64,000 bases of DNA, taken from assembly GCA_026874595.1 (NCBI GenBank), contig CM049316.1, positions 70,392,176-70,456,175 on the forward strand, given 5' to 3'. Below the pieces are notes generated by a model, which was given only the letters and a program-made list of their open reading frames with translations, did not search any database and was not told the DNA's origin. Positions 16,905 through 39,876 of this stretch are shown piece by piece. The stretch's first letter is position 1, and each line of letters begins with the position of its first letter. Source of the DNA: Sipunculus nudus. Lineage: Eukaryota > Annelida > Sipuncula > Golfingiida > Sipunculidae. Made by a program: the position numbers and the translations under genes.

Positions 16905-17398
16905 ATGAAAGAACGCAGAAGCTCCTTTATTAGCCAGATTCCCTCGGGGCATATTTTATTTCTACTATGCCTACATTGGTGTGCGCAAAGTGTGTACGGA
17001 ACTGGATGCCAGATTAAAAGGCAGATTCGACCAGGGGATACGGTCAACTCACTGGGAGAACAATTTTCCCATCGAGGAATGAAACGGTTGTACCGCATTC
17101 ATATACCAAAGAAATATAACCCGCTGGCCGACCCACCGTCGCCGCTTGTGTTGTTTCTACACGGAAACGCAGGGAGTGCGCGCAAAGCCGCAAGAAATTC
17201 TGGCTTCTTGGATAAAAGCGAAGCTGAGGGATTTATGCTTGTGTTTCCTGAGGGCATTCACAATTATGAGATTGCGTACTCCCCCGGTGCTTCGCGGATT
17301 TGTTCCTGGAACGCCGGGACTTGCTGCTCCACGGCTCATAAAGAACAAGTGAACGACGTGGCGTATATTGAAGAAGTCATTTCTGACGTCCAAAGAAG
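16905..17398 (+). CDS. Coding exon 1 of secreted CE1 / PHB-depolymerase-like protein (residues 1-165)
   Basis: This exon encodes the N-terminal part of an alpha/beta-hydrolase of the carbohydrate esterase family 1 / esterase-PHB type. Residues 1-32 look like a signal peptide: basic start, hydrophobic core HILFLLCL, then a likely cleavage after SVYG. Residues 60-70 (MKRLYRIHIPK) form the first core strand. LVLFLHGNAGSA at 81-92 carries the oxyanion-hole HG. FMLVFPEG at 110-117 and CSWNAGTCC followed by VNDVAYIEEVI at 133-158 are family hallmarks. An in-frame stop at 16887-16889 upstream makes the ATG at 16905 the first possible start. The exon ends at a GT donor (AAG|GTAACA) at 17399 in phase 2. 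The TAA just after the donor is intronic. The acceptor AG at 16882-16883 lies just upstream, so the 5' UTR is spliced. Confidence 0.9.
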
Positions 17399-17707
17399 GT
17401 AACACAATTTATGTATTGTGCACTTGTATGTTTAAGGTATTTAGAAAAAAAAATTAGCTTTTGTGGGGCTTATCTTTTTTAATTTAAATTTACAAAGAAT
17501 ATGCATCATTAGAAGTAGGAGTCAAGATGCACTAACTGAACTTAATTTTTATATGAGGTTACATAATAACGCCCTAAATCGATATGGTCAACCAACGGAG
17601 GTGACAGCATATTTAGCTCTTGTTTAAAACCTTGGGCTTAACAGACATTGAAAGTGTTGCCGAGGGGATAATGATATTAAAAACGTAATTACCCCTCTGC
17701 CAGATCC

Positions 17708-17740
17708 TTCTCTCTCTCTCTCTCTCTCTTTTTCTCTCTC
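17708..17740 (+). repeat. CT microsatellite
   Basis: A short run of TC dinucleotides with a few T interruptions, about 310 bases into the intron and upstream of the minisatellite. Confidence 0.85.
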
Positions 17741-17858
17741 GACAATTTTCGTTATGTAGGAAAGTTTCAAAGTCAAATTTTGAGCTAATATTAATTAATT
17801 AAATGGCTAGGTTGCGCCGATAAGTTTGATTGGCAGAGCGCTGTGCCCATGATCCATG

Positions 17859-19975
17859 ACAGGTTAATAGCGAGCCTAGTGCTAACACTAACCAAAAGAT
17901 GTTAGTAGCGAGCCTAGTTCTGACACTAACCATAACAGGTTAGTCGCGATTCTAGAGCTGACATTAACCATAACAGGTTAGTAGCGAGCCTAGGGCTGAC
18001 ACTAACCATAACAGGTAAGTAGCGAGCCTAGTGCTGACACTAACCATAACAGGGTGGTACCGAACCTAGTGCTGACTCAACCATAACAGGTTAGCAGCGA
18101 GCCTAGTGCTGACACAAGTCATAACAGGTTAGCAGCGAGCCTAGTGCTGACACAAGTCATAACAGGTTAGCAGCGAGCCTAGTGCTGACACAAGTCATAA
18201 CAGGTTAGCAGCGAGCCTAGTGCTGACACAAGTCATAACAGGTTAGCAGCGAGCCTAGTGCTGACACAAGTCATAACAGGTTAGCAGCGAGCCTAGTGCT
18301 GACACAAGTCATAACAGGTTAGCAGCGAGCCTAGTGCTGACACAAGTCATAACAGGTTAGCAGCGAGCCTAGTGCTGACACTAATCATAACAGATTAGCA
18401 GCGAGCCTAGTTCTAACACGGTCGATAACAGTCAAGTAGCGAGCACATGACAATTCATTGCCGAACCTAGTGCCAAAACGGCCATAACATGAGAGGTTAG
18501 GGGCGCGCCCAGTCTTAACTCGACCCATGTTAGGTTAGTGGCGAGCCTCGTGCTAACTCGGCCTATGCTAGGTTACTGGCAAGCCCAATTCTAACACAAG
18601 TGCTAATGCTAAACGGTCACAACAGGATAGTGGCAAGCCTAGTTACTAGCTTTGTGCTAACCTAGCCCGTGTCAGGTTAGTGGCGAGCCTAGTGCTAATT
18701 CGGTCTAAGTCAGATTAGCGGTAAGCCTAGTGCTAACTTGACCTATGTCAGGTTAGTGGCCAGCCTAGTGTTAACTCGATCTATGTCTGGTTAGCGGCGA
18801 GCCTAGTGCTAACTTCGCCTATGTCAGGTTAGTAGCGAGCCTAGTGTTAACTCGGTCTATGTCAGGTTAGCGGGGAGCCTAGTGCCAACTTGACCTATAT
18901 CAGGTTAGCGGCGAGCCTAGTGCTAACTTTGCCTGTGTCAGGGTAGTGGCGAGCCTAGTGTTAACTCGCTGTATGTCAGGTTACCGGCGAGCCTAGTGCT
19001 AACTTGACCTATGTCAGGTTAGTAGCGAGCCTAGTGTTAACTCGGTCTATGTCAGGTTACCGGCGAGCCTAGTGCTAACTTGACCTATGTCAGGTTAGTT
19101 GCGAGCCTAGTGTTAACTCGGTCTTTGTCAGGTTAGAGGCGAGTCCAGTACTAACTTGACCTATGTCAGGTTAGGGACGAGCCTAGTGTTAACTCGATGT
19201 ATGTTAGGTTACCGGCGAGCCTCGTGCTAACTTGGCTTATGTCAGGTTAGGGGCAAGCCTAGTGTTAACTCGGTCTATGTCAGGTTAGCATCGAGCCTAG
19301 TGTTAACTCGTCTTTGTCAGGTTAGTGGAGAGCCAAGTGTTAACTCGCTGTATGTCAGGTTACCGGCGAGCCTAGTGTTAACTTGGCCTATGTCAGGTTA
19401 GTGGAGAGCCTAGTGTTAACTTGGTCTATGTCAGGTTACCGGCGAACCTAGTGCTAATTTGGCCTATGTCAGGTTGGTGGCGAGCCTAGTGCTAACACTA
19501 TTGCTGTTGCTAAAACGACCATAATATGATAGTGGCGATCCTAGTCACTAGCCTAGTGCTAACACTAGTGGTATTGCTAAAACGACCATAATATGATAGT
19601 TGCGAGCCTAGTGCTAACCCAGTCTATGCCAACTTAGGAGCGAGCCTAGTGCTAACTCGGCCTAATTCGGGTTAGGTGTTAACAGTACCCATGACAGAGG
19701 AGAGGCGAGCCCAGTGCTAACTCAGCTATTGCCCGGTCATTAGCTAGCCTAGTGTTACCACTTCTCCTAACAGTGGCGAGCTTATTGCTTACGCGGCCCG
19801 TGACACGTGTTAGTGGCGAGCCTTGTGCTAACATCAATCAAGACATGTTAGTAGTAGCGAGCCAGATATCATCATCACCACAGGTCAGTAAGAAGCCCAG
19901 TGTTAACCGCCACGTTTACAAGTCAGTTACGAGTCTAGCCAGTGCAAACATGAACCATGACACGTAAGCGGTGAG
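17859..19975 (+). repeat. 38-bp minisatellite array (about 55 copies) with 76-bp dimers
   Basis: The unit is 38 bases and is built around GTTAGYRGCGAGCCTAGTG followed by a variable half. Three zones are visible. From 17859 to about 18100 the variants read CTGACACTAACCATAACAG. From about 18110 to 18375 there are seven units with the same CACAAGTCATAACAGG half. From about 18500 to 19480 two monomer types alternate (TTGACCTATGTCAGG then GTTAACTCGGTCTATGTCAG), giving a 76-base higher-order unit. The edges are degenerate. No spacers separate the units. It sits about 460 bases after the exon 1 donor. Confidence 0.95.
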
Positions 19976-19979
19976 TTTA

Positions 19980-22735
19980 TTACTCTCATTTCGAAGAAAA
20001 TTTTGTTTCGAGTTTTTTTTTCCAATTCAAGTTTATCATCAGAATTTCTTAATGTAGGATATACACTCCTAATTCAAAACACCGGACTAAGCTGGAATGA
20101 ACCAAACACAAAATATACCGAGTGGCCTTAAGAGAGAAAGAGAAACAAAACTGTGTAACTTGTTACCTAATCGGCACAGGGAGAACACTTTGACGTCATC
20201 TCGAATGCAGCTTCCGCTGGTGCAAAACAAGGATGTCAATTTCTTCATTTTCCTCGGCTGCACAAGGCAGCTGGGTTTCATTTTGGTTCTATGACCAAAA
20301 AGAAAATCTTATTTATTATTTTCCAAATATAAACAATGGCGCCACCGATAGTTTAACTATTGTATTTTTTAACTTAGATTCTGGTTAGTTGCAGTTTTAT
20401 ACACACAGCAAAGATTAAAAAAATTATGACACTATGTACTGTGCAGATTCAATTAGTTATAATGTAAGTAAAAATCAAGCTCATAATGCAGGAAACAAAC
20501 ATGTTGTGTTTTCTCCAAAGAACTCTCAATTTTTCCTCTGTTGTTGAAGATAGTTCCCAAAGAACACAGAATTTATACCGTGAGCTACACTCCTAACTGT
20601 GTGGTTTACACACTGCAGTCGGTCAATATCATTAAGCTTACGTTAAGCCTGATTCTTGGCATGTGCAAGAACCGGAGCAATAAGACCAACGAAAGTGGGC
20701 TGTCATGGGGTTAAACGTTGGGCTGGATGCAAAATGAAATACCACGACTCATTGGTCTGATTACGATTCTTTGCTCTGTGTAAGCCCTGGTGGTGAAACC
20801 CGGAAAATTTTGCTATTCATATCAGCCGTTATACCGAAGGGAGATGTATAACCTTTAGCAACTTGTGATCTTCAAAACATTGAAGAAATTTAAATTGCAT
20901 GCAGCTTAACCGAAGTACTAACGCTGATTGTAAACTGCATTCAATGTCCATCATTTTAAAATTAATGAAATCCCCTAATCTTATACCGGTCATAAAATAA
21001 ACACATAAGTTATCACTCTGGTTATAAACTTTATTTCGTTGCAAGTTTTATTACATGGAATACAGATATAAGGCAGAAGGATGGGTTGCTTAAAATGCAT
21101 GATATGCCAAGTAAAATCAAGATCCAATGTAGGGAAAGGGTCTTTATAATTCACAACGAAACGCGTTTACCCCCAAAACACACATACTCAAATACATTTT
21201 AAACACAAGCATGTTAATTTGGGAACACCCCTCAGACATTGAAAAGATGGGATAAAAACACACCACAGTTCTTTCTAAAAGCTTGGCTTTACGTAGCCTG
21301 ACATATAAACATGAAATAATTATCGCCATCGCACGACATATATTTCTTTTTCTTTTTTCACAAGGGGGGGGGGGTAGGGATCCCCGAAAGGCGCACCAAT
21401 TTATGAGTGAAATTCGATCGTGGGACATATGCCGCCTTTCCAATAATACTGCACAGTGCACATCCTGGTTGGGGACCGACCATGAAAATTCCCAACTGAA
21501 ATTTTAACTAACGATCTGTCCTGAGCTCTAAACCCCATTCCATCGATGCCGATGATAACAAAAAGCCGTTGATGGCACAGAAAGAAAGTTATTTTTTTTT
21601 CAAAGGATCCCTTGAGAGAAACATAAAATATTGTCTTTTTATTTCACGATTTGCACGGCTTAAAGATTATGAAAAAGATGTAGAATATTTTTATTTATAT
21701 ATATACTTAACATGGAATATAGCCTGTTTTAATTAAAGGGTTTTATGTGACCGAGAGCGAAAATGGTCCTCAATACCATCGTGAATAATGATACGTCATT
21801 TATCTAGCCCAATTTTATCGGCAGGCCTAATTTATCTGTCAAAGAGACTTAATTTGTTGATCCGAAACCATATATTTAATTCCTGTAATTAAAAAAAAAA
21901 TTAGAAGTTTATTCCAAAAGTTTGAACAAATCAGCATCACTGACTATATCTATTGGGTTACAAATCATGATAGCAGGAAGTATTTCTTGATATCATTGGT
22001 TAGTTTCGCATGTTTTTTTTAAATTAAGCTTTTACAAAATAGCTCTGTGCGCGACAACGTTAGATGAAATTATAATAGTTGTTAATCGGATTGATAGTTA
22101 ATAGTTTCTCTCTGAATTAGTAAGGAAATATGCCCGTAGATGGCAGTAAAGTGGCTCCAGTTAGGCGGTGGACTGGCCCAGTTCCGAGTCAGTGATGTCA
22201 ATCAATGTGTTTTTACCCATTTTACTGCACATTAAATTTAGAAACCACCTAGCAGGAAATTAAGGAGCACTTAGACATTAATGTCGCCCAACGTTCCTGT
22301 CATTAACTTCCCTTTAACCGGAAATGATTTACGAGACACTGAAACTTATATTGGCTATTTAGATTCATAATCATAATCAAAAACGGGCCGTAAAAATACC
22401 GATTAATTTAGGTCATACCTGAGGAACGATACATGTCACGGCTGACCACATGAATCATACATCAACTGATAAAGGACTGTTTATCAATTTTTATTTGTGT
22501 TCACTTTACTCCTACCCAATGGTGTTTATATAGGACCTCAGCTATGCAATAGTTTACATGCAATACATGAAGGTAGCGTCATCATTACACGTTTAATATT
22601 TAGTGATAAAATCATTGGCTCCTCATGCAAAAGTGTATGTTGTTTCTATACATATGCAAATTCTTTAAGGTTGAAATAAATTTGTAAGGAGGGACAGAGT
22701 ATTGTTCCAATTCTCTTCGTCTCTTACATTAACAA
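19980..22735. other. Intronic stretch, nothing recognised
   Basis: No element termini or domains were seen. A run of G lies near 21364-21374. The 105-codon minus-strand frame at 21144-21461 has no motif I recognise. A CTCF-like CCCGTAGATGGCAGT is at 22133-22147. Bases 22141-22195 have faint A-box and B-box-like spacing and may be a decayed SINE head. Confidence 0.5.
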
Positions 22736-22739
22736 ACAC

Positions 22740-23045
22740 ATTTTTGCAATAAGAAAAAACGCGCATTCTCATGGACTATAGCACACTGTGACGCGCCGAT
22801 TTGCAATGACACAGACAAACGTATTTTTGCACCTTCATAGACACGCATTTTGCACTAGCAAAACCCAGCATTTTTCAATGACAAAGACACCCTGTGAAAG
22901 ATAAAGATAAAAGTATTTTTGAACTTTCAAAGAAACGCATTTAGCACAAACTAAAACATACATTTTGGTCTTTGAAAGTCAAACATTTTCCAAAAACAAA
23001 AACGCATGCATTTTTCCTCTATAAGAGACGCGTTTTGAACAGATC
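22740..23045 (+). repeat. Degenerate ~35-bp tandem repeat
   Basis: Phrases such as ACGCATTTTGCAC, CAGCATTTTTCAATGAC, GTATTTTTGAACTTTC and AGACGCGTTTTGAAC recur with roughly 30-40 base spacing. The units are strongly diverged, so the period is approximate. Confidence 0.45.
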
Positions 23046-23049
23046 ACAA

Positions 23050-26000
23050 TGCGTTACATTTATGTATATTTTGACAATTTTTAAGTAATTGGGGTAATTG
23101 TTAGTGTTATTCAACTGAAAATGTGATATACTTTAACAGGATTTTGCAAAGAGAGTAATGCCCTACATTTGTCACTAAAAGTCATTATTCAGATCTTAAA
23201 ACAAAATAAAATGGTAAAATTCCTTGTAAATTACCTTTAGCCTGAAAAAAAGGAAAAAGTTCCATCGTTTATCCCATTTCATAATTCCCCTATTATATTC
23301 TGTGACCGTCTTCAAAGAAATATTTTGGTAAAATTTATTAGAAATTTATTAGAAGTCTTCTTCTCGCCTCATAGACAATAACTACTAAACTAATATTAAA
23401 TTTATAGCGTTGATACGAACTTTGCTGTTCTAGAAAGTTTGCAGTTTCTCATCATCGATCAAACAGATTTGTCATTGACACAGAAAGAGAAATCAGAAAT
23501 GTTCGTGTCACCACATATCCGCGAGATTCCCCAAGATGTAATCTGTCCCTGTTGTCTTTACAAAGCAATCCAACTCCTCTTAAAAGACCATCAGCTCCAA
23601 AAATAAACTTTTGTTGGTAATAGAAACAAATCATTCACCTATAAGTAAAAACCAGTCGCTTTATTCGGGAAAGGTAAAATACTTCCAAATCTGCCAGTCG
23701 GTAAAAGCTAGCCGTAAATCATTTGTTCAAGTTTACCGTAAAGATAGAAGCGTGGCCCTGTGAAATAGTTTCTTATCACAGAATGTTTGAGTGTGATGGA
23801 TGGGTTACTGCGGGCTGAACTTGGAGCTTTGGTAAATGTGATCTATTGCTGAGCTGGCGGTCTGTTTAGAATTTGAGAACAGTTACTGATGATGGTAGTG
23901 TTGTCCAAAACTTTAAACTAGTGGAAATCTTACAAGAAATGTTTTTATTAGGACAGAACCTCAGTTAACCGTAAACGGGGTGCAGAAGTATGGACGTATA
24001 AATATTTATTATACACATATAACGTATGAGCGCGGACTAGTATTGTTTGCTCTCCATGTGTATGTGCGTGTATTTTAAAAAAATCATCTCAAGTGCGGGG
24101 ATTAATGCCCCAGCTGAATGTAAAGTGTCACATAATCATGCTTTTACTAAAACTGTTTACATTTAACAAATATTTTTCACATTTCTATATACCTGACCAA
24201 AATAAAGACCAAAAGAATAATGCAAAAATTCTCATTTCTCAGCTTGAAAATTAATAATAAACTAGATGCAGCCGTGGAAAATGTACGGTTCTATATGATA
24301 AATACTTCTGTAATGAGCTTGTAAGGACTGAATGTCGCATATTTTTATCCTGTGCTTTTCGCAGGGACTGTTGATCATGATTTAAAGATCACATGGACTA
24401 GGATTCTCCAGGAAACCCCCCTCCCTTAAAATGTCAGCAAAAATATCAAATTATGCTATTCAAGAAATCAAATAAAGTAGTAGACATGTATACAGTATGT
24501 GAATTTTGAGGGGTTTTCTTGTCCGATAAACAAACATGGGCATGACATCATCATTGCCCGGAGTAATGGGGATTGTATATAAAAGCCATATATACTGTGA
24601 AAACAATTTGAAGCAATACTGTGACTATACATTGAAAAGTGAAACTTTATGAAAAATAATTTGTATAAACTAAATCTCAAAAGACATCACGAAAAACGCT
24701 GCTTTTAGTTATCAATAGATGTAAGTCTTGGGTATGATAAAAACACATACAAAATTCATTAAAGGCTCTTGCACACGAAAATGCTACTTAAAGCTGATTA
24801 AGTGGCAACACAGGCTCAGGCAAATAGATTTCTTCAATATTATCAAATGCTTGTCCTGGGTTTTGTTGATTGTCCTCTGGCTGATCGGAAACTGATGATG
24901 CTCCCAGGAAAACGACAGGTTTACCTCTTTCGGTGTAACTACGTGGCAAAAAAAAATAACTTCAGCCATGGTTCGTTGCTTTATCGTGAGTAAAACAAAT
25001 GCAAAAAGGTATACCCGGATTTTTATAGAAAATTTGCAAAGGGTTAACGCCAAACCCGTTTGAACAATCCATTAAATTTTGCAGGTTATCAGATTCAACA
25101 TAATATATTTTTCACTTGTGCCATATGACAAAAGAAGAATTCCATTGTCCCCACGTAGGAGCCACCCATTCGTATGCATTCGTTCTTCCACTCGCTAGGC
25201 GAAAAAGGGTCACTGAAGCGTGACAATGTTTTCATGAAAAGTGTACACTTGAACACATGAGTGATAAGTGTTTTAGGCTCCGACTGCGGAATTTAGTTTT
25301 GTAGTAGATTCCCATTCAGTTTAAAGATCTACTTGTAATATAGTTTGATGTTTCAAAGTCCCTGGAGCTAGCGGATCCTGAAGTAATATATGTGCATCCT
25401 CTAAGTTTAAGTTGTAGAGCTTTGAACAAATGGTTTTTCAAACCACCCTTAAATTGAAACCATTGTCTTAAAGGAAAGATATTTATGTTTTGAACGAAAA
25501 AGCTTTAATTCCTGTGCAGGGAAGTGCAGGGAAGTATTGGGATCAATTGGGATATGAGTTGACCTGTGACCACGAATTGCCTCCTTAAAAAAGAAAACGT
25601 GACAGGCATGAAGGACTTAAAGCAAAAAAGAAACAGGGGCACATAAGGGGGGGGGATATTTTTATGTGATATGGGCATTATAAAGTATGTACCTTAATGA
25701 CATTATCCCGCAAAATAAAACTTGTCCTAGAAAGAGCGCACCGCCGATACGTTTGCCGAATTTCGAAGGCTCAAATCAGAACGGAAGCAGGTAAACCATT
25801 GTCTAGAAAAAAACAGCTGCGTATTTATTATAAGGATGACTAATATCGAAGGCTTCATGTCATATATTTCTTCTTTCTAGTGGATGTACAAATAGGAAAG
25901 CCTTTCGATATTATCATTGGGATTGTATCCAATGATAAGGGTGTAAATATAAGACTTTCGCTCCAGAGAAAGTGCGAACTCCAGTCGCTTGGTACAAGTA

Positions 26001-29000
26001 CATTATTTTGTGATTGAGTAGGCTTAGTCGCTCGTTTTCTCATTTGGACCCGAGCCCGGTCTCGCTGGTATTGTTTTCCCATTACCATAATACCCGCGGT
26101 AAATTAAGGGTTCATTTGCAGCTGAGGTTCCTGTCGCCTCCCCGACCGATCTATTTACTTCGTGATTAAACATGTATTGTCAATCGTGACCTGTTATCGG
26201 TTCCTCACGTGATAAAAACCCGTTTTATACTCACGATATCTGGGTGTTTACTGTTATACCTTTATATCTGTTATACCACTTTCCCCCTGGGTCCAAACGT
26301 CAAGCTTGTCAGAGACGATGCAATAAATTTCGGTTTAAAATCAATTCTTGTATTGCATGATCATTTTGCAGGATTATGCATGACTTTATAAATCCCCATT
26401 AAGTGCATATGCTGCAAGAACGCAATTCATGTAAATAAATAAACATAAGGAAACGACTTTTTAAGGGGTAATCTGAAACCGTAGTTGGTAATCGGAATTC
26501 GATTTCAAGTTTCTGGGTGAAAATCAGAGGTCGGTTTCAGATCAAGTCTGTGAGAGATAAAGTCAAATGTAAAGGTAAAGTTTGCTTTAGTGCATGTGAG
26601 GTAAAAGAAAAGGGGGACTGAGTGGTATTTAGAGAAGAAGACGCATGTCATTTTGATTTGCCCCTCCAAAAGAAGATTTAATACTCCGGCCATCGAAAGC
26701 AAACACTAGGGTAATATTTTCTGTAGTTACCAATATGTTAATTTTTATTCGTCTTACTACTTGATAAAAAAAGTATTTGCTATGCATTGGCAACATGAAT
26801 TAGATAAATGCAGGCCGCCGTAAACGGACAAAACAGCTTAACATATTTCAAACAATGATTTTAATATATTGATTATCTAATGATGGCAAATGGCAAATGC
26901 ACCAGTCATACGATATTTAAAATAGTTTTTATCGTGCACCATAGAAATGAATCCCTAATTCAGAAATTCCATTATAATAAAAATGCGGCCATGTTTAATA
27001 AATATTTAAAACTACACTACGTCTGTGCACCTTAAAAAAAGTTTCAACCCTGTGGGGATCCAGCTTTTCAATGCAATACTCAACCACTTCTGTTATTTGA
27101 CATCAAATTGTATTAGTTTAATGAAACACTCTCATATTGTTAAATTAATAATAAAGAGATAATACGTAACAGTAAGCTTATGGTAGTTAGAGACGGGTTT
27201 TTTTTTTATCAAAATGGTTGTACTTTACCTTACCCCACTGATTGGATTTGACAGATATCAATATGTAATAGTACGAATAAATAAGGCTTTTTGTTAGGAA
27301 TATGATTAATACATGAAGCATGTCGTGTATTTTTTTACGGAATTCAAGGAAAAGTTCCACAAATACCCACATGGACTGACCAAGTCGAAAGGCTTTTTCT
27401 GGCACTTTTTTTCTACACTTAGGACAGGTAGTGTCATCTAGCGGCAAGTTATATGACTAATTCATAGTACATAGACATAGTACCCTTGTCCATTTGACTT
27501 AAAATCCGGACTTTGTTACGTTTGCGAGGTATAGAAACAAGTTTTATCTTACATTATGTTTGAGGTAAACAAAATTACTACCTGCCAATACTTAACCAAA
27601 AATCTACATGGTCCGTAAATCTATATATCCTTGACAAAAACCATCGTACATTGAAATGAGTCAAACTAATAAGATAATAACATTAAAAAAAATATCAAGA
27701 AAAGGTCCACCGATACCTGATCATGGTATATAAATAGGTAAAATATAACCTCAATAATGTTAACTAGTGCAAAGATAAGGGAACGTTGAAACACTCCCAC
27801 CATAATAGCCTTATCCATTGGCGACTACGAACACGAAAGATGAGAATGGGTTTCTCACTTTTAGTTTGAATCATATGGGAAAAAGATTTTTTGTTGTCAA
27901 TATAACGACCGAGCACTCGGCCAGCTGAATGTTACGCCGATTTTGACTCATGAAAAATAACGTAGTTTTTTCGATATGAGGCATGACACAGTTTGTTCCA
28001 TACGATTTTTCTTTTTCACTATCAGCGAATTTTCAACAAAAGCATACGACAAGTCAGCGTCAAAATAGAATATTCACAGGAAAGACATTTTCTAGACATA
28101 TCTTTCACCCAATCATTTTGGCCATGAGATCCCGCAAAAGTGCGCAGTTGCTCCAGATCCGATGATCGCGAGGAGAAAACATATAAATCGGGAACAATAT
28201 GGGATATCCTGAACCGCCGACGTCATGTCCCCATTTATATGTTCTAATGCCGATAAATTTCCTTCGACAAAATATGCGGCAAAATATGTGCCTGGCTTTC
28301 AGGATGCTGTTGCTGTCAGCACTTTTTGCCTTGAATCTTGATATATACAAAACTGGTATTGTGTGAACACAGCAGACGATGATTTGCGATATATCATGAC
28401 CTTAACTGCACTGTCTGACAAGGCAAACGACGAATCATTCGTATTCCGTGAGTCATATTGTCAGATAATTTACAAATCCGAAATGACGTTTCTGTACCTT
28501 GGTAACCGTTGCTAAGGAACAATCATATGCACATCAAGCCGCAACGGGTGCAACAGGCCAATGGTTTTAACACATTCTACCGTAAAGTATAATATAAGAA
28601 AAAAAACTGGAGCAAACACACTAAAATAAAAGTGTTTGTTTTTGCTGAATTTATTAATAAATTGAACCTCCTGAGCACAGCACATCGATTTATTTTCACA
28701 AGACGGCGTTAGTTCTTTTGCTGTAATCGGATTGGTCAATAAACTTGGTTCGTTTGTCAATAATCTAACGTTATTCTGACCCTGTATAAACACGGGAAAG
28801 TTTATCACTTTCTGTTCAATAATAAATAAACATTTTAAAGGTAAGCTTGACCCTGTAACGGCGACGCTTATTCTGTAACTATTGGTCCGTACGCCATTAT
28901 TAAAGGTTAATGTCCCGTTGCTTTGTTTGGTTTGGTGGCTTTAATTTGATTGTTTAACAGACCATGAAATTATCACTCGGCTCACTAGACCGGCTCCCTG

Positions 29001-29510
29001 CTCACATGTATCCCCTAGAGGCCCAGGGCAACGTACAGACGGGCACTAGACTACTGTCATACCAAGGTTTTAGATGATGCAAAATACCATCCTAAAGCTA
29101 TTATAGTTGTCGTAAATCTGTATGCATCTGTATACATATGACGTTTGCGTGTTCAGTGGTGCGACATAAGGCTTAAGGCACAAAGAAAACATGAAGGCAA
29201 TGTTTTTAGGCGGGGACGCCAGGAAATATAAATTTAAATCCTTGACCCAAAATATGGTAATTTTTTATACATATTCTAACATTTAATGAGAGGAGATTTT
29301 GAAAAAAATGGTTTCGTATGGCAGCCATTTGAAATCCAAGATGGCCAAATGCAAGGATGGAAACAGCAGTATTCTTTTTCTCCACGTATTGAAGTGGTAA
29401 ATCATACCGGTTTCTAAATTCTACCAAAAAAGGTTTAGGATCATGACTAAAAAAAATCAATTTTATGGCAAACTGCCACCTGACATTCATTGACCAAACG
29501 CATGTTTTAG
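23050..29510. other. Intronic stretch, nothing recognised
   Basis: AT-rich sequence with only short chance frames. It contains short G runs (25648-25656) and a weak CTCF-like GTCATCTAGCGG at 27433-27444. No terminal repeats, tandem arrays or domain-bearing frames were found by eye. Confidence 0.5.
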
Positions 29511-29514
29511 CTGT

Positions 29515-29595
29515 TAGTTCGTAGAATAAAGGTCATTTTTAGCAAATAAAAAGTTTCCATGGAGATATGACCAGGAACTATTTGAATGTTAAGCA
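29515..29595 (+). repeat. Solitary partial unit of the ~155-bp repeat family
   Basis: GTAGAATAAAGGTCA, AAGTTTCCATGGAGAT, GACCAGGAAC and TTTGAATGTTA occur in the same order as in the units of the array at 2815-4375. The second half of the AGGTCA palindrome is lost here. Confidence 0.55.
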
Positions 29596-29818
29596 ATAAC
29601 TGTATAACGGTTATTTTATTTATTTACATTATGTGCCGTGACGGAAGTATCTATCACTATATCTATCAGCTGAGCTTAAAATCTTTCACAATGTTCTTAT
29701 TTGAGGTCAGATTAATCACTATAATATTCTTAGCAATTTCCCAATTAATAAATATACAGATGAGATAACAATTTTCAAATTGATTTTAAACAATAATGTG
29801 GTTTAAGTCAGCCCACAG

Positions 29819-29838
29819 CCCCCCCCCCCCCCCCCCCC
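29819..29838 (+). repeat. Run of 20 C
   Basis: A pure homopolymer. It is preceded by TTTAAGTCAGCCC; the C run at 39981-39993 is preceded by the similar CTTAAATCAG. Confidence 0.9.
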
Positions 29839-29839
29839 A

Positions 29840-32062
29840 GTACATTGGTCAGGTAACCTTGTACATACTATTTGATATAATTAACCGTCTCAGTGACCTA
29901 TATAAGGTCTGGTCGCCTTGGATATTACACCTGCAGGTGCCCGTCGCCCTCCGTCCCCTGTATGTCGTACAGATCACAGATCAATGCTTAATCTGCCCTT
30001 GAAATGTCTAGGTTCTACTGAAATGACGGAAAAGCCGTTTCGAGCCTTTATTCGGCTATTTCCAGTCGCCCCATTGTCTCTAAAGAAATAGACCTATGCT
30101 GGTTGAATAATTGACATAGTGAATATGTAGACGGCTCGGAGCGGTGTGCCCGGGGGATGGCATTAGTTGCCGAGGTCAGCCTCCTCTGCCCGCTGAGGTT
30201 AAATAAAGCCACGTCAATTATACTAAAGCCTATAAGGTGCGCGACACCACGAGAAAATCGTCCAGCCAATATGTATTAGGGTGTTATGTGACCTTATGAA
30301 AAGTGACTTGAAATGCCTACCTCTTGTTTATCTCCTTCAGCTTTTGCTATTGAGGTTAGGCATGTGGCTGGGTCATTACACGCATGTTTTTTTTATTCAG
30401 ATGGAGTGTTTATAAAACAAAAATAAACAAAGTACAGTGGCTTATTAATAAATTGTACATTACATATATAAATTAAATACATTCTTAACAAGAAGGCATT
30501 AATAGAGTGCATGTCTTCGCCAATGTCTTAACTGATACACATCAAGAACTCGGATCATCCCAAAATTTAACTTTATTGATATGCTTTTAAAAGCTATAGT
30601 CGATTTTGCTCCGTAACCCTTGACTCCTTCTAAAAAATATTGTCTAATAGAATTCCCCTTATGAACATTGTGGAAATAGAATGGGACCGTTTGCTAGTGG
30701 GCACCCCTTGCCAATACCTGATAACTTGCATCATCTAAATTTATATTGTTTATTGTTCGAGGCGAAAGGGCCTGTTAATTTTAAACGAAAAAAAGGAAAC
30801 CTCATTAAGTGAATGTAGGTCTTTTAAATTTCACTTATAATGACGTCTTTGCGATGAGCTGATGGATGCATTACTCTTCCCTTATAAGGACGTAACCATG
30901 ACGACGTTAACGACTATTCCTTGGCCCATATTTATATTTTCTGAAAAAAAAAAAATCATCTTAATGCATTTATAATATATTCGAGATATTGCTTTGACAA
31001 ACACACATACATACATAAACCACCCAGAATACGTGCTCCTCTGCCTCCTTCGTTTGCGTCGGTAATGATTAGCTCTTGGAATATTTCACATTTTGGCCAG
31101 TAATCTGTGCAAGGCTGTGTTTAAAATAAGAATGTAGCGCAATTATGAACACCTATCGATTGATTTCACGCATATTACTTTGGTTTATAGACGATGCTGC
31201 CGGCAGACTGAAGCTTACTTTGTGAATAACTGGTCCTGCATGTTTAACGTGTGAAAATGGGTGAAAGTGCCTTTGAATCCTGAACACAGGCATTTGTCGT
31301 GATCTGAAACTTTATAAAATGCTCGAATCGTTCACGTCTTTTAATATTAGCTGCGCTTAAGTCCTTTTCTAGAAAGTATTAAAGAAGTTTTAATATAATC
31401 TAACAGCAATCAACTTGATTTATCAAAATATTTCTTTTTTATTCATGTAGTTTCGAAACCAACCACAAACAAAATGAGAAAATTAGTAATTTTGGGTACA
31501 TTACCGCACTGGCCTTTAAACGGTTTTTCCTTAACGCTAGACCATAGTTTACAAATATTTAGTTTATGTTTTCCCGGAGACTGGCCCAGTCGGTACCGCT
31601 GATAAGACTGTAATGTTCCCGCTTACTGAGCCATAAAGACTTGCTATCTGCCATGGCCTGATACTGCCATCTTGCGGCCAATTATATTACGGTTCTCCGA
31701 CCGAACTGATATATCGTCTGTGTTTATTTCGCTTTGTTCTACACATTTTATAAACGACATTAAATACTAACAGTCTGGAAAGGCTTGTTCTCCTGAAATG
31801 ACGGTCAGAGAGACAAACACCAATCATTTTCTCTTAACGGCAGATGACATTCAATGACCATGTTTTTTATCGTTCTAAGTCTCGTCAAGGCATTCATTGT
31901 AAATTAAAAAGGTAAACTTTTCGTATAATTTGTTTCATGATTTCACAAAAGTATTTACAAATATTCCCTTCACGCCTTTGCAACAATATTTTTGGTTAAT
32001 TTTTATAATTATGATCGCATAAATAGAAAATGGTATACAATACAGACAATTCTTCTTTGCCT

Positions 32063-32065
<3 letters not shown>
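29840..32065. other. Intronic stretch, nothing recognised
   Basis: Mixed AT-rich sequence. Bases 29880-30270 and 31560-31720 are closer to 50% GC and could be regulatory or old repeats. GCCATCTTGCGG at 31666-31677 is CTCF-like. No exon is supported. Confidence 0.45.
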
Positions 32066-32068
<3 letters not shown>

Positions 32069-32108
<40 letters not shown>

Positions 32109-32110
32109 AC
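32069..32110. repeat. AT microsatellite
   Basis: AT dinucleotide run with one TTT interruption. Confidence 0.9.
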
Positions 32111-32114
32111 CCCC

Positions 32115-34545
32115 TTTAACATATTTATATAATTAATAAAGCTAAAAATGCATTTTATCATTTAAATCCCTTGACATATTTATACAACTGACCATTATAT
32201 TTTCGAAAACTAGATAGAACACACGTGCAGATTAAATGAAAGAGTTCTACGCACAGTACGTTATAACAGCTCCGCTAATGAGGTTTGCGACACCCATTGA
32301 TAATAGACAAATTATTTTTATTACCAATTAATAATAGTTAAAACGAAAGTTAATAAACAAGATGTAATTAGGGAATGATATGCCTTTAATGATGTAACAT
32401 GGTGTAAGATTAAGCACATTATCATTCAAACTGAAAGCATGGGTAATTAGTAGTCACTGAAACCGGGGAATATGCGTCATAATATTTACGAAACTGAAAT
32501 ACGATTTGATTCCATGACAACAGGTATTTTTTTTTAAAGTGATATATCTTAGATATTGATATCATCACTTCACTCTAAATATGTAGATCGAGTTCACTAT
32601 CTGGATACCGGTTCGACGACTATATCTTTATTGCAGAAAGTATTGTCAGTTCAAGGATTAACGGAGATGGGCAATTCGCGACCAAATTGTGGTCGAACAA
32701 AATATCTGATGTTCCCAGCATTAAATATTCATTCTATATTTTAACAAAATATACCCAGTGACTAATATATATTTTTTAATTGTTGCATGATTATTTGAGC
32801 TCTAGCATTAGTTTTAGTTGTACGACATTTGATCTTTACTAACCGCATTCCGTTATCCTGGAAGGAAAGTCAATGATATGGTCTATTCGATAGTTTGACT
32901 TCATATTCTTTTATTTTTTAAATTTACAATTGTATGCCCAGACTTTACCTTGATAAACATTTCTAAAAAAAACGTTCAAGTCGTACTTACCAAGGGGTTC
33001 CAAATTACCCTAGGGTCTTCAAATCATCTCAAACTTACAGGAATTCTGTATTTATACTTTATCATGGGGGTTTTTAAGCTGTTTTGTCATTGGTTCTTAA
33101 TTAAAAGTAACGGATGACAATTCCTATGTAAAATATTACTCATAATTGAAATAGATTTGAATTTGTCGAGAAAGACGAGTAGAGAATAACTGCGAGTGGA
33201 TTCCATTCTGCTTAGCTTCCTTTCTTTGGAAGAATACCGAAGAGTCACTGGTATTCGTTATATTAACGTTTGTTATCGGAAAAACAACCATTTATATTTT
33301 CAAGGTATTGTCAGTATTGTCACTCAGTCAACTGTGTAAGAAAAAAGTCTACCTATTTCACTACTTCAAGTTTGATATGTGTGTAATCTTTAAAAGGTGC
33401 CATGTGATATTGTGTCACATTGTTTGTGTTTGTTCACTACATTCATAATGCATACCAGTATATCAACTGGTTAATTCAAAAGCGAAATCTAGGTATCTGA
33501 ATACTAAAGTCGGAGTTTGAATATAACCCACAATGAAACAGTCAATATTACTCTACATTCAAAAAGTACATGGTTGTCATATCCAGACACTGTAAGATTA
33601 AAACACACATACAAGAGGGGTTCGTCCGTGTTCGTCCGGACGGGTTTCCCATTGGTTGGGTTCAACCGCTGGATCCAGTTGCGTAGTTTCTAATGGGTAT
33701 TGCTGCGATAGACTATTCACGAAATGTCAGATTTAATATCAGAATTGTCAAGTTTCTGTAGACCAGAACGGGAGTGTACGAGTCGTGGTCATTGTATGTT
33801 TTCCTGGCTACCATTTCTTGCCCCTGCCAGTTATAATATTGATGAACGAAGTCCTACAAAAATGTTCCTAAAAAAAAATAACCATCAAAAGCTTAATAAA
33901 ATTATCTTTTATATTAACATGTTTTGATACAAAGCCTTTTATAACTTCTCTTTCTGAAACCTAAGAATCGAGCTTTCCCTGCCGGTCCCCTCCTTTACTT
34001 ATTAAAACTGCTTTAAATTACATTTGAAATTTTATGTTATACTTTTTTCAATATTTTGCGGTAAGCCTGTGAAGTCCCCGAAAAAGAATATTTATATGAG
34101 GAAAATTATACTCAAACAAGGCGTATAATGAAGACTAATATTTCCTGGATCAATTTAAGCTTCTGATTATACCACTGGATTTCTGGTAATCATGTTTTAT
34201 TAGGATCGTTTTACTCAGTACTTCATAAATCACGTTAATTACTTTAATTACTACAGTATAAATGTTGGTTTCCCTTCATTAAGTAGAATGTTTGAAATAT
34301 CCATCGCTAAATTTGGCCAATTGTTCCTCAGTTGTTTGTTTTGAGGAATTGTCTGGGAAACATAATAACATCACGTGATTTAGCTTCTTGCCCGATGAGA
34401 GTCAGTGACTCTGAGGTCCAGTAAAGATAATAAAACTAATTTGCGTTATGGGACGGAACGGATTGAGCAAGGGTGATAGTCAGAGTAAATACTTCATTCT
34501 TCAGATGCTGTATATGAACTAATGAATTTTTTTTTCGTGATAACG
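32115..34545. other. Intronic stretch, nothing recognised
   Basis: AT-rich throughout. A small repeated TTCGTCCG with the palindrome GTCCGGAC lies at 33619-33645. No coding or element signal was seen. Confidence 0.5.
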
Positions 34546-34547
34546 AA

Positions 34548-34578
34548 TATATAAATATATATAAATATATATATATAT
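34548..34578. repeat. AT-rich microsatellite
   Basis: ATATAA and AT units. Confidence 0.8.
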
Positions 34579-34663
34579 GCCATACCTTACACTGTTCGTG
34601 AATTGTTAGCTCAAGGTACAGATTTCCTGTCGTCTGCGATTCCAGTTAAAATCTGATCAAGGT

Positions 34664-34912
34664 TTGTTTGTTGGTCTCCCCTTTGGCATTCACCCTTCCG
34701 CGATTGTAAATGGCAAAGGAAGCCTGAAAGCCGGACAGTTAGCGGTTCTGTCTGAAGAATCAGTATTTTGCCATAGTGATGTCTGCCCTCCTACAAAAAC
34801 CGCAGACTTTGGTTTGCATTTTATGATATATCGACAATTGAACAGTGAAGTCCATGAACAGCTCAGTTCAGCTCGCGATATATCAGAAATAGTGGTGAGT
34901 GTGAAGCGGTAG
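34664..34912 (+). other. Open frame of 82 codons in the intron, doubtful
   Basis: The frame has balanced composition and is followed by a donor-like GTGAGTGTG at 34895-34903. No domain, signal or family motif is recognised, and no acceptor or partner exon is evident. The opposite strand is also open across the same bases, which argues for chance. It is recorded because it is one of the few GC-balanced frames in the intron. Confidence 0.12.
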
Positions 34913-35390
34913 ATGGGCCGGGTGGAAGAGATCTGTTCGAAATAAGAACAATCCAAATCTTCTGTAAGAATTTCCTACTGGTACTGCTTGCGTTCTGTTC
35001 AAACCAGGAATGGCTTGCCCCCCTGGTGTAGTAATTTAATATGGCCCAGTTTATATTTCAGGTGGGGGGGGGGGGAGGGGATCTGAAATCGATTTATCAA
35101 ATTTGTCCAGATCTTTGAATACCTTATATTTCCATGTAATGTGCTGCTTTTGTGAATGTTATAAGTCGATATAAATATAATTTACAATATATAAAACATT
35201 TTCAAATACTTTATTTTCATAGATTTTAATTGAACTTTTAATTAAAATCTGGTGTCTTGCACGTGGTTTATTGAAATAAAATATTGAGTTAAGGGCAAAG
35301 AAATTATGATATAGTTATATCAGCGCGGAGATAATCTGAATTATGCAAAAGTAACCTTGAAATGGGCGGAACTATCCCGAGGGGTACTAT

Positions 35391-35431
35391 GAAATCGGTT
35401 TCAGTTTACTGAGGGGAAACTGAAATTGGTC
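35391..35431. promoter_or_regulatory. Inverted pair of interferon-regulatory-factor-like motifs (hairpin)
   Basis: GGTTTCAGTTTAC and, 5 bases on, GGGAAACTGAAATTGG form an imperfect inverted repeat. Each arm carries AAACTGAAA; the right arm GAAACTGAAA fits the GAAANNGAAA core bound by IRF proteins. Function is inference only. Confidence 0.25.
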
Positions 35432-35500
35432 CGGATCAGTAGGCGCTCGCAGTTTTGCAGATGATGCAGAAAACTGCCGGGTCTGGTTGTAAAATTACCA

Positions 35501-35902
35501 ATGTCATCATTCATTAGTCGCTTTTACTGGTGTTCTCTTGTTAACTCTTTATCTCGGCTGCATGACGACACCGCGGATACCCACACCTCGGTGGCTTTCC
35601 ATCAACTGGTTCTTCTTGTGGGATGCATGTCGCGTTTGCAGACATCCGTGAAAACCAGTGTTGCTATTCAAACACGGCCCTTGCTCGGCGCAAGCTCACT
35701 ATATTGTTTTTCTTTGAGTAACCGACCATCCTGTTGGTCGCCTGGCAGACAAACTCATGCGCTCGTATTCAAGCGTGAAGAAACACTTTTGGACTTGAGC
35801 CATTTCAAAGAACGTTCTGGTTTCGGATGTTTCCTGCAAAACCGTTCGAAGATTTCTCCTGAGACAATACACAAGAAAAAAAAGTTCAAAACTTATATTT
35901 AA
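35501..35902 (+). other. Open frame of 133 codons, no recognised product
   Basis: This is the longest uninterrupted frame outside the esterase-like exons and the AT repeats. It is rich in Ser, Leu and Thr and ends in a lysine-rich tail. It has no domain I recognise, no obvious Kozak context and no splice support. It lies on the same strand inside the gene's intron. It could be chance or a decayed gene. Confidence 0.15.
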
Positions 35903-35989
35903 TACACTGCCTCTGCATGTATCACAGTTCGGTGGAGGTCCAATCCAATCAGAATGAGACGCCTCCTGAGTGCCGGAATTCTCCATTTT

Positions 35990-38580
35990 TATTTATTTTA
36001 AAATTTGAAATGTGAAATTTCAATTTGACATTATGACACTTTAGAAAATGTTCATAAGGTCCAAGGAAAGTTAGGAATTTTATTTCTTATGCCTTTTACG
36101 TATTCTTGTTTTGTTTCATTTAATTGTAAATTCATTAGAGACTTAAATGAAAGACTTAAAAATGCTTAAGGATTCAAGGTACACAACAGTCTACACAACA
36201 TACGAAATATATAAATTTGGATTTGTGTTTTTGAAGATGACAGATTACAGCCGTTGGTCTGAACTGAAGCAAGGTACTTTTCATATCAGTTAAACCCAAG
36301 TTCTCCTCACTTAAGAAGCTTGCTAACATCTGACAGAAAAACTATAGATTAGGTCACTGTAATTCTCCGAGTAACAAATCTAAAAAAGGTGTTTCAACAC
36401 CCACCGAAGTTAAGAATTGTAACCGGTTGTAAAAATACATGCAATACCCAGGAACTGCCGGACTAATTGTCATGACGTTAGGTGAGCTAATCGGGCTAAA
36501 CAAAATGACATTTGGAAAAGACGGTGCGAGCCACCTGCATATTTTCAGTTTTAATCACTTGTATTTCTTTAAGTATAACTTTGGTTTGTCCTTCACAAAG
36601 ACAAAAATCATAGCCGTTGGATACAAATGATGAGATTTCTCAGGAGCCCTAAATATAGATTGCTTTTGCCTTTATTTTCTACATGAAAAGAGGTGCAAAG
36701 ATATAAGTATTAGTGTTTCAGGTGCTATTCAATCTAATCCTTAGCAGGGCATTCACTCTAACCACTAGACTTCAAGCTTTTACACGCAGAAATAAAATGA
36801 TAAATTGTTTCCAACTTTTATTAAATCACTATATTTATGCCCTTTTTCATCGGTAAATTTGTTTTAACTGCTGAATGTCATGGTCAATGGGCCACTTATT
36901 TGATAAAATACTAGTTACAAAGCCATGAAGTACTAATTTTTAGGAGATCAAAGTGTCGGATAATAAAGTAGTAACGATTTTTTTCTCACTCAGCATTGGA
37001 TATTTCTGTAAAATTGAAAGCATGGAAATGCAAACAATGATTTGTTATGCACTGTATTACAAAAATAACATATTGTCATATAAACCTGATGAAATAAGCA
37101 GTGTACAATATGGTACAACAATAAACAATACACTTTACAACAAACTGTATGGCGTCTTAAATCCTGTTTACTGCCTTCTGCGTGACAGTTAATGGTCGTA
37201 GGAAGACAAACAGTAGTGTTCAAAATGAGTTAGAACAAATTCCATAGACCAAGACAAGACAAGTAAATATGAGTGTCTTCTTAACAAATGAATCCTGGAA
37301 TGAATTATGCATTCAACCGAACAAGTAGAAATGTGAAGTATAGACAATAGTATAAATAATTGACCTTAGGCCATCATGATTTTAATTGAATTATTCATTT
37401 CCCCCAAAGTAGAAATTTGAGGCCGTCAGACCTGAGTGACGCATTGTCATGAGCGATGTGAAAAGAGACTTGTCATTTATCAATACATCCAGTCTCTCGA
37501 TAGCTACAGTGCCCGAGGAGTGGTAACTATGACAATGATTATACAAATTGACATCAAATATCAATTAACCTTTAATGCTTTCATTATTGAATTGAAAGAG
37601 CTCATCCGCGGGTTAACATTTCATAAGTGCCAATTATAATCCCTATAATGAATTTTAAATGAATGATTTCATGTCCATTCATAAGAAAACTGAACAAAGG
37701 ATTTGAGTGCCTTCAGTCCAAACATAAACAGCCAATCAGCGCAAGCGAAGGCATAATTTTTTGATAATATACGGCTCTTATAAATTCTCAAGTTTGACGT
37801 TTCATTTATGAAATTTCAAAGATGAAACAATTACACTCATTAGTCATAATATAAATATGTTATAATCTATCATAACTTACACTGTTCTGATATAAACTTG
37901 TTTCACTGGCTGACTCATTCCGGTCTTTGTTAGCATCCAGGTCTAAGCCAGTAAGGCCCCTGCAAGTAAATGTTCGCTGCTCACTTTTATTAAACAGCAT
38001 CCGAAAAACCCTTTTAATGAAATCTTTTTGTAATATTGAAAAGTCACATTTTATTTCAAGACCTGCGTTAGTAGAAAAAAAATCTTTGCGAGTACTCATA
38101 AATTAAGAATTTTTTTAAAACAAAATACAACTTTAGAATGTACGGTTTGATAATGAAGCATATACCAACCGGTGTGACAGGCTGACTGTAGAAACCACTT
38201 GACAAAAGAAATAAAACACTCGATCGGTATTACCCGACTGACACTCGACAGGTCGTTACTGTGGTAGCACTAAATAAGGAAGGATTTCAATTCGAAAAAA
38301 TCATCAAATCCGATTACCATATTATTTGCAAGGTACACGTGCTGCTAGCGCATAGGAGTCTTTAACGGTTTTACATCTCAGGTGATATGCAAGTGAAGGG
38401 GCGCTAAGAAACCGTAATGCGGTGTTTCTACTGACCAGAAACAAAATGATTTCACAAGTATAGTTAACTACATGAATCATTGCTTTAAAGGCCAAAATGC
38501 AAACATTTATATGAGTATTCGAGTCCTTAATCTGGACGCGAGGACTCGGCTAGAATTATTACTAATGAGGTACTTCAGTA
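35990..38580. other. Intronic stretch, nothing recognised
   Basis: AT-rich with only short frames. No tandem repeats or element ends were seen. Confidence 0.5.
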
Positions 38581-38584
38581 TACA

Positions 38585-38720
38585 TTCTAAGAATCCGGGT
38601 TCTTCGCAGTGGACTGAGTGGGAAACCTTTTTGGTTCCAACTTGAACCCTAAGTACATGGTTCCTATTAGAACCTTCCAAGGGTTCTTGTATGGAATCTA
38701 ACGGGTTCCATCCATAACCC
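38585..38720 (+). repeat. Cluster of GGTTC / GAACC palindromes
   Basis: GGTTCTTCG, TTGGTTCCAACTTGAACC, GGTTCCTATTAGAACC, CCAAGGGTTCTTG and CGGGTTCCATCC lie within 135 bases and form several small hairpins. It ends about 350 bases before the exon 2 acceptor. It resembles internal sequence of small DNA transposons, but no outer ends are clear. Confidence 0.45.
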
Positions 38721-39071
38721 CTTTAATTAGAATTTTAAAAGTGGACTGACTAGTGAAACTCTGAAGTTTCTTTGTGGACCCCTTCTATAGGGTGGTTATG
38801 GAACCTTCATAGAAAACGTTGTCCAGACCGTCATATAAAACAGTAAAGATCAATTATACAGATTTTTTTCTTTTTCCTTAAAGTATACTACCTTCAACAC
38901 TTATTATCTTTTAATAACACGCATTTATATACATGTATGAACCGACCAATGAAAGAAACCAAGTAAGGCTAAAAAGATAATGCAAGTGCGAAATAGTAAA
39001 ATAAAGAGTCAAAAGGATACAAAATACATGATTGTTCATTAATCTGGTATTTTTTTAATTTTCTCCTGCAG

Positions 39072-39876
39072 GTATTGCGTCTCCCAAGATAACGTCTTCA
39101 TCGCCGGATTTGCCAACGGAGGGATGATGGCGTATCGTCTGGCATGTGAAATCGGACACCGGATCAAGGCCATCAGTGTCTACGCAGGCGCACTGCTGTT
39201 CCGCGACACGCGGGAATGCACAGTCGAGTGCATGGGATACCCAACGACACAGAATAAGTGCTTTAATACACTCAAATGTAACAGGGAAAATATTGAAAAC
39301 TTACCGCCGATTTTCGAGTGCCACAATGACCAACATCCAGTGTCGGTTTTACATATGCACGGCCTGAAGGACCCAAGAACGCCATTCAAGGGAGGCATTG
39401 GTAAAAAGAATATTGAGGAGGTAAACTATTTACCCGTGGAACTGACACTTGATTACTTGGCCAGTAAAAGCGGGTGTTCTGTAAGTAAAAAGGATATATT
39501 CCGAAATCGCACCAAGAATCGGGAGCAAGCGGTATGCATTGAGTATTTGGGATGTCCTCATAAAAGTTATCGTTTCGTTTTGTGTAAACTAACCAATGGT
39601 GGTCACTATTTACCTGGTATATCGTCGCCATTTTGCAATCCCAGGGATTCCCGCCGAAATGTGGATCGCTGCCGCGTAGCGGAACAGGAAATGGGGCCAA
39701 CGTCTGATAGCTTAGATTTCACTCAGATGTCTTGGGTTTTTTTTCGGAGGGCCATGGAGAATTCCCGGACCCCTCAGTGGGCTGCAAGAAACAATCATGC
39801 TTCTGTTGTTAACCTAATAACAACTTGGCACCTATGTCTAGCTATAATCTGGACAGTTGTTAAACTTTCCTTGTGA
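39072..39876 (+). CDS. Coding exon 2 of CE1 / PHB-depolymerase-like protein (residues 165-432), nucleophile Ser replaced by Ala
   Basis: The exon starts in phase 2 after an AG acceptor and completes Arg165. VFIAGFANGGMMAYRLACE (174-192) is the nucleophile elbow of this family, usually G-x-S-N-G-G; here Ala179 (GCC, 39112-39114) takes the place of the serine. The acid Asp265 (HGLKDPRTPFKGG) and His343 (TNGGHYLPG) are kept, as is the lid-side Cys-rich stretch near 207-225. The segment FRNRTKN holds an N-glycosylation sequon. The last ~25 residues are hydrophobic to the very end (LITTWHLCLAIIWTVVKLSL) after a polar spacer, which suggests a GPI-anchor signal or a terminal membrane segment. The stop is TGA at 39874-39876. 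Total 432 residues, a normal length. A catalytically dead or altered protein is predicted; one base change (TCC to GCC) would explain it, so an assembly error or allele is possible. Confidence 0.9.

Follow-up and report, generated by a model that had tools for sequence, protein, structure and literature searches.

Gene structure and active-site residues

The window, which is the whole 64-kb stretch of Sipunculus nudus DNA that was analysed, corresponds to C11:70392176-70456175 of a 1.43-Gb assembly and harbors a gene with two coding exons (Table 1). Joined, these exons give a single open frame of 432 amino acids. Residue 179 of the product, lying inside AGFANGGMM (nucleophile elbow GFANGG), is alanine; the other residues of catalytic type, His86-Gly87, Asp265 and His343, are present. 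The spliced translation bears out the preliminary description of this locus as to the GCC codon of the elbow, His86-Gly87, Asp265, His343 and the length of the frame.

Table 1. Features of the window gene (positions in the window), its paralogues and the Ser-type exons found in the same assembly
Feature	Position	Strand	Basis or content
Coding exon 1, residues 1-164 and two bases of codon 165	16905..17398	+	Open frame, splice joins; re-found by genome search; contains secretory N-terminus, oxyanion HG and SWNAGTCCST motif
Probable signal peptide, residues 1-32	16905..17000	+	Kyte-Doolittle hydrophobicity only
His86-Gly87, oxyanion motif	17160..17165	+	HG in 7/7 paralogues; H in 84/85 and G in 83/85 homologues
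Intron, about 21.7 kb, phase 2, GT...AG	17399..39071	+	Position and phase identical in all seven paralogues
Coding exon 2 including stop codon, last base of codon 165 to residue 432	39072..39876	+	Open frame, splice joins; re-found by genome search
GCC, Ala179 at the nucleophile position (AGFANGGMM)	39112..39114	+	Raw sequence; alignments to PDB esterases and homologues
Insertion, residues 210-248, with four extra Cys (214, 218, 228, 234)	39205..39321	+	Invariant in seven animal proteins, absent from 85 prokaryotic homologues
Asp265, triad acid	39370..39372	+	7/7 paralogues, 85/85 homologues
Leu294	39457..39459	+	Trp in 79/85 homologues
His343, triad base	39604..39606	+	7/7 paralogues, 83/85 homologues
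Leu345	39610..39612	+	Trp in 83/85 homologues (GGHxWPG)
Hydrophobic C-terminal tail, residues 407-432, possible GPI-anchor signal	39796..39873	+	Hydrophobicity only
Three paralogues on C11	70.18-70.21, 70.41-70.43 (window gene) and 70.54-70.59 Mb		
Four paralogues on C1	5.915-5.946, 6.135-6.140, 93.96-93.98 and 94.09-94.10 Mb		
Ser-type PHB-depolymerase-like exons L115, L118	C2:4.07-4.11 Mb		Elbows GLSSGG (L115), GISSGG (L118)
Ser-type PHB-depolymerase-like exon L116	C11:16.37 Mb		Elbow GLSAGA

No second copy of the gene was detected by tblastn within the 64-kb window (next best E 2.8). The search for RNA families in the window gave 0 matches, and five other open reading frames there match nothing in Pfam at E<=0.01. 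In the intron, shortly after exon 1, a 38-bp unit forms tandem arrays (window positions 17855-19496), which coincide with a local rise in G+C content at 18-20 kb.

Both ends of the protein are hydrophobic. The best 19-residue Kyte-Doolittle window at the N-terminus scores 1.31 in the window protein and 1.31-2.13 in the seven paralogous proteins considered below (mid-protein values are 0.77-1.18), and the best window of the C-terminal tail scores 1.86 and 1.48-2.49, respectively. Judged by hydrophobicity alone, a signal peptide is likely at the N-terminus of all seven proteins, in line with the secretion proposed earlier, and the C-terminal tail of all seven could be a GPI-like signal.

The seven-gene family and loss of the elbow serine

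Searching the genome yielded 14 exon matches, which combine into seven two-exon genes (Table 1). The single intron has the same place and phase in every paralogue, the open frames span 413-432 residues, and the proteins are 35-66% identical among themselves. The elbow residue is Ala in six of them (GCC in three, GCA in two, GCT in one) and Gly (GGG) in the seventh, Ser being found in 0/7, and HG, Asp265 and His343 are kept in all. The absence of Ser at the elbow is beyond chance. The trivial explanation, an assembly or sequencing error or a decaying copy, is very unlikely because the genome holds seven intact two-exon paralogues: seven separate loci agree in the missing Ser, the open frames and the shared intron phase, and constraint at the codon level is strong. 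This explanation was rejected, and its remaining probability is negligible.

In 85 prokaryotic homologues (the best 80 of 385 relatives from genome contigs and 5 plasmid hits), the position equivalent to Ala179 is occupied by Ser in 84 cases and by Asp in one. Ala179 also aligns with the nucleophile Ser of four PDB esterases (9j07, 8jh8, 8daj and 3wyd). The earlier reading that the nucleophilic serine is lost is supported. The genome-contig loci were gathered by two peptide patterns. Pattern one fixes WNAG[TG]CC and leaves the elbow free; pattern two admits only Ala or Ser, equally, at the elbow after Gly-Phe. Since Phe precedes the elbow in only 7 of the 85 homologues, nearly the whole Ser count derives from loci that pattern one could retrieve. 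Because this pattern fixes WNAG[TG]CC, residues 135-138, 140 and 141 owe their high conservation in this sample largely to the way in which it was collected.

The single Asp belongs to L051 from the Proteobacteria MAG 336R_metabat_400, which has GFDNGA at the elbow and HA instead of HG; in L023, a near sister, the elbow reads GLSNGA. The Asp elbow of L051 is possibly an independent change of chemistry, or else an error of the MAG.

In a tree of 92 rows, the seven animal proteins form a single clade (support 100/100), which comprises a C11 subclade and a C1 subclade. Two changes between Ser and not-Ser suffice on this tree, one for the animal clade and one for L051. The route by which the family entered animals is not readable from the tree, since all other rows are prokaryotic. 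Serine was most likely lost before the split of the seven genes, and for this reason an acyl-enzyme at the ordinary site would be impossible in all of them.

The seven-gene family is strongly conserved at the protein level, the pairwise values being 0.71-0.84 for pS, which is saturated, and 0.22-0.47 for pN. Omega computed on the paralogue pairs is finite in only 8 of 21 (0.08-0.30; dS is saturated in the other 13) and can be taken to be low, with no weight on the precise figures. Across the seven genes, 85 of the 86 invariant residues with degenerate codons are encoded by more than one codon, which disfavours gene conversion as the source of the shared Ala and elbow. The suggestion of selection and not decay, made from the window gene, is sustained by these values and by the intact state of all seven paralogues. 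Invariant columns make up 91 of 392 overall. The elbow window, residues 176-187 (AGFANGGMMAYR in the window gene), has 10 invariant residues out of 12, the top value among all 12-residue windows, and this value was reached in 0 of 20,000 permutations.

A Ser-type member of the subfamily was not found in the same genome with the profile NF050058 (E<=0.1; 21 matches, the 14 exons at the top followed by seven weaker hits), although a divergent Ser-type gene could escape this search, which treats exons one at a time and gives scores to the best candidates alone. At E<=0.1 the profile is unspecific: in a control it matched in 13 of 14 well-known genomes, none of the matches being above its cut-off. 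Among the weaker hits, L115 keeps Ser and matches the PHB depolymerase 2d80 (E 1e-6), and L118 and L116 are Ser-containing PHB-depolymerase-like exons that resemble L115 by eye; the three look like a different subfamily from the seven paralogues. By eye, L114 resembles a bacterial S-formylglutathione hydrolase and lies beside an alcohol dehydrogenase, L117 and L120 have other Ser-type elbows, and L119 has no clear relative. A scan of viral contigs with a single protein, which reaches close relatives only, gave three pattern matches, none of them relatives. A description of such an animal family was not found in the titles and abstract beginnings of the open-licence PMC literature, a scope within which absence is not proven.

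Bacterial genes are carried by contigs C60, C61, C62, C66, C72, C74, C75, C89, C115 and C123 of the assembly and come from either symbionts or contaminants. They include nine cox1 matches with open frames of 577-578 aa on C60-C89 (the C60 locus alone was read); C123 has genes of a cbb3-type oxidase, and C115 a gene resembling formylglutathione hydrolase. Searches of the assembly with COX1 and COX3 returned bacterial-type genes and a short COX1 fragment with TGA on C5 (open frame of 85 aa), and no clear mitochondrial contig.

Family assignment, fold and an apparently rebuilt pocket

The best profile for the window protein is NF050058 (e_dPHAscl_type1, extracellular short-chain-length PHA depolymerase, catalytic domain type 1; E 1.3e-35, 123.2 bits), which covers nearly the whole domain. 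Its curated cut-off of 150 bits is missed by all three animal proteins that were scored of the seven (window protein 123.2, paralogue A 133.5, paralogue E 140.3), and the bacterial proteins L009 and L006 pass it with 159.7 and 167.7 bits. The catalytic Ser of the profile is replaced in all seven proteins, by Ala in six and by Gly in one, whereas the triad Asp and His and the HG motif are found in each of them. With PF10503 (Esterase_PHB), the window protein scores 11.6 bits, under the gathering score of 23, and the genome gave 0 matches at E<=0.001 among 3 candidates scored. The alpha/beta hydrolase fold is supported by PF02230 (32 bits, cut-off 23) and PF00326 (27.6 bits, cut-off 22.6). The nearest PDB entry by sequence is the feruloyl esterase 9j07, with E 2.5e-14 for the single sequence and 9.4e-47 with the family profile. 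Sequence comparison thus places the family closest to extracellular PHA depolymerases of type 1 and feruloyl esterases, below the NF050058 cut-off.

An AlphaFold model of the bacterial homologue L009 was obtained with alignment A4, which contains 39 of the 85 homologues (alignment A3 contains 22 of the 85 and 4 of the 7 animal proteins); its pLDDT is 89.7 and its pTM 0.86. The model puts Ser182, which corresponds to Ala179, after strand 171-181 and before helix 183-194. Strands 86-92, 221-227 and 296-301 are followed by His93-Gly94, Asp230 and His306, respectively. The predicted layout is that of a classic triad, with Ser182 placed as expected of a nucleophile elbow. Through alignment to this model, Ala179, His86-Gly87, Asp265 and His343 are predicted to occupy the corresponding places of L009.

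Forty-one positions are conserved at >=90% in the 85 homologues. Thirty of them are unchanged in all seven animal proteins and six in some; without the six pattern-fixed positions (135-138, 140 and 141) the kept share is 25 of 35. Five positions are replaced in 7/7, namely Ser179, Phe154 (by Tyr), Trp294 (by Phe or Leu), Trp345 (by Leu, Val or Ile) and Ala381 (by Phe). Position 345 is two residues after the catalytic His. The animal ligand may well differ from that of the homologues because both conserved Trp are absent in all seven proteins, and the aromatic-ester or polyester ligand put forward in the preliminary description finds no support here. The oxyanion HG had also been called intact, which holds, but the stretch around it is conserved only in part: residue 88 is Gly in 73 of 85 homologues, Asn in three paralogues and Ser in four, which may change how a carbonyl is bound. 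It would seem that the pocket was remodelled and not simply inactivated, so the ancestral ligand should not be taken for granted.

Residues 140-143 (17322-17333) contain CC in 7/7 animal proteins and in 81 of 85 homologues, the latter count being biased by the search pattern. In the animal proteins CC is followed by an invariant Ser-Thr (CCST, 7/7), whereas 62 of 85 homologues have Gly at position 142. Hydrolysis could in principle proceed with a displaced nucleophile such as Ser142 or Thr143, for which this conservation is the entire support. Most serine hydrolases need the elbow geometry, and no structure places Ser142 or Thr143 near His343; such a hydrolase is considered very improbable.

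Six extra Cys occur in every one of the seven animal proteins and in none of the 85 homologues: four lie at 214-234 and the other two at 353 and 365. Cys-rich insertions peculiar to these animal proteins would suit a partner or regulator which binds other proteins through its hydrolase surface, as neuroligin-type proteins do, with a pocket that plays no role; non-catalytic cholinesterase-like proteins do exist, according to PMC5943944. The conservation maximum, however, lies at the pocket elbow and not in the insertions, and this role appears quite improbable.

Possible function and comparison with known systems

The elbow serine is missing in every copy found and the other active-site framework is kept; therefore the proteins probably serve binding or a different chemistry, not ester cleavage. 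The reading that we favour, with moderate confidence, is a conserved non-hydrolytic family at the cell surface which may hold a ligand in the old pocket. Its relatives are Ser-type extracellular esterases from the PHA-depolymerase/feruloyl-esterase clade, and its members would be secreted, disulfide-rich alpha/beta-hydrolase proteins, probably GPI-anchored as far as hydrophobicity alone can tell. The kept elbow, the oxyanion HG and Asp/His would line the pocket, where a carbonyl-containing ligand could be held uncleaved, as in a natural Ser-to-Ala substrate trap. The protein would serve as a receptor or for capture on the outer face of the cell. Ligand binding is favoured by seven of seven proteins being without Ser yet with HG, Asp and His, by three different Ala codons, by the 100/100 clade and by the conservation peak at the elbow. 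Saturated pS with low pN, the hydrophobic ends, the extra Cys in 7/7, the lack of a detected Ser-type subfamily member and the elbow of the L009 model are also consistent with it.

The same pattern fits an enzyme (a lyase, an isomerase, a cofactor-free oxygenase or one that catalyses a transfer) whose general base is the His-Asp dyad and whose functional state is the Ala elbow. This is the strongest rival of ligand binding, although its own probability is low. Non-enzymes derived from enzymes often lose a larger share of the triad, which counts against ligand binding. Conservation of the animal proteins peaks at the elbow, a point in favour of the dyad enzyme as well. The retention of His and Asp in 7/7 despite 35-66% identity leans towards this enzyme only slightly, because 30 of the 41 conserved positions are retained in all seven anyway. 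The Gly of one paralogue in place of Ala speaks against it. The dioxygenases of the HOD/AqdC type with the ABH fold provide a precedent that works alike: according to PMC10548524, the nucleophile is dispensable in them, some, such as AqdC, naturally have Ala at the elbow, and the His-Asp dyad serves as the base. However, no HOD/AqdC dioxygenase is named among 28 PDB profile matches at E<=1e-5, a profile list and not a pairwise comparison. A dyad and oxyanion site derived from a PHA depolymerase or feruloyl esterase could, together with the Ala elbow, carry out non-hydrolytic catalysis at the cell surface as an independent parallel to AqdC; this particular version is likewise of low probability. 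The label of pseudoenzyme given to the window protein earlier goes further than the evidence, since a His-Asp dyad is able to catalyse without serine (PMC10548524).

The family raises the question whether an esterase pocket without its nucleophile is retained because it binds a ligand or because of dyad chemistry. The seven natural variants, one of them with Gly, form a ready series for testing the function of the pocket. If the proteins do act at the surface as receptors of microbial or food-derived ester ligands, they would constitute a new animal recognition system.

Proteins of the NF050058 type share WNxGxCC, HG, GxxNGG, Asp and His in register with the animal proteins, but the latter are devoid of the serine and both Trp, possess extra Cys, a hydrophobic C-terminal tail and an intron, and score below 150 bits. 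The feruloyl esterase 9j07 differs in having Ser at the elbow, and its alignment has gaps over most of the WNAGTCC stretch. The entry 2d80, from Penicillium, is likewise an alpha/beta hydrolase bearing the PHB-depolymerase name and has relatives within the same genome; unlike the seven paralogues, these relatives keep Ser (GLSSGG in L115) and look like another subfamily.

The gibberellin receptor GID1 is a precedent for the receptor function. According to PMC3531792, it has the hydrolase fold and is believed to descend from an esterase that lost one residue of the triad. GID1 is, however, a plant protein of another family, and it lost His and kept Ser and Asp. Serine-less proteins with the hydrolase fold are already known; what is unusual here is a set of seven genes of ancient duplication, for which no Ser-type sister was found in the same genome and in whose proteins the elbow is the most conserved part.
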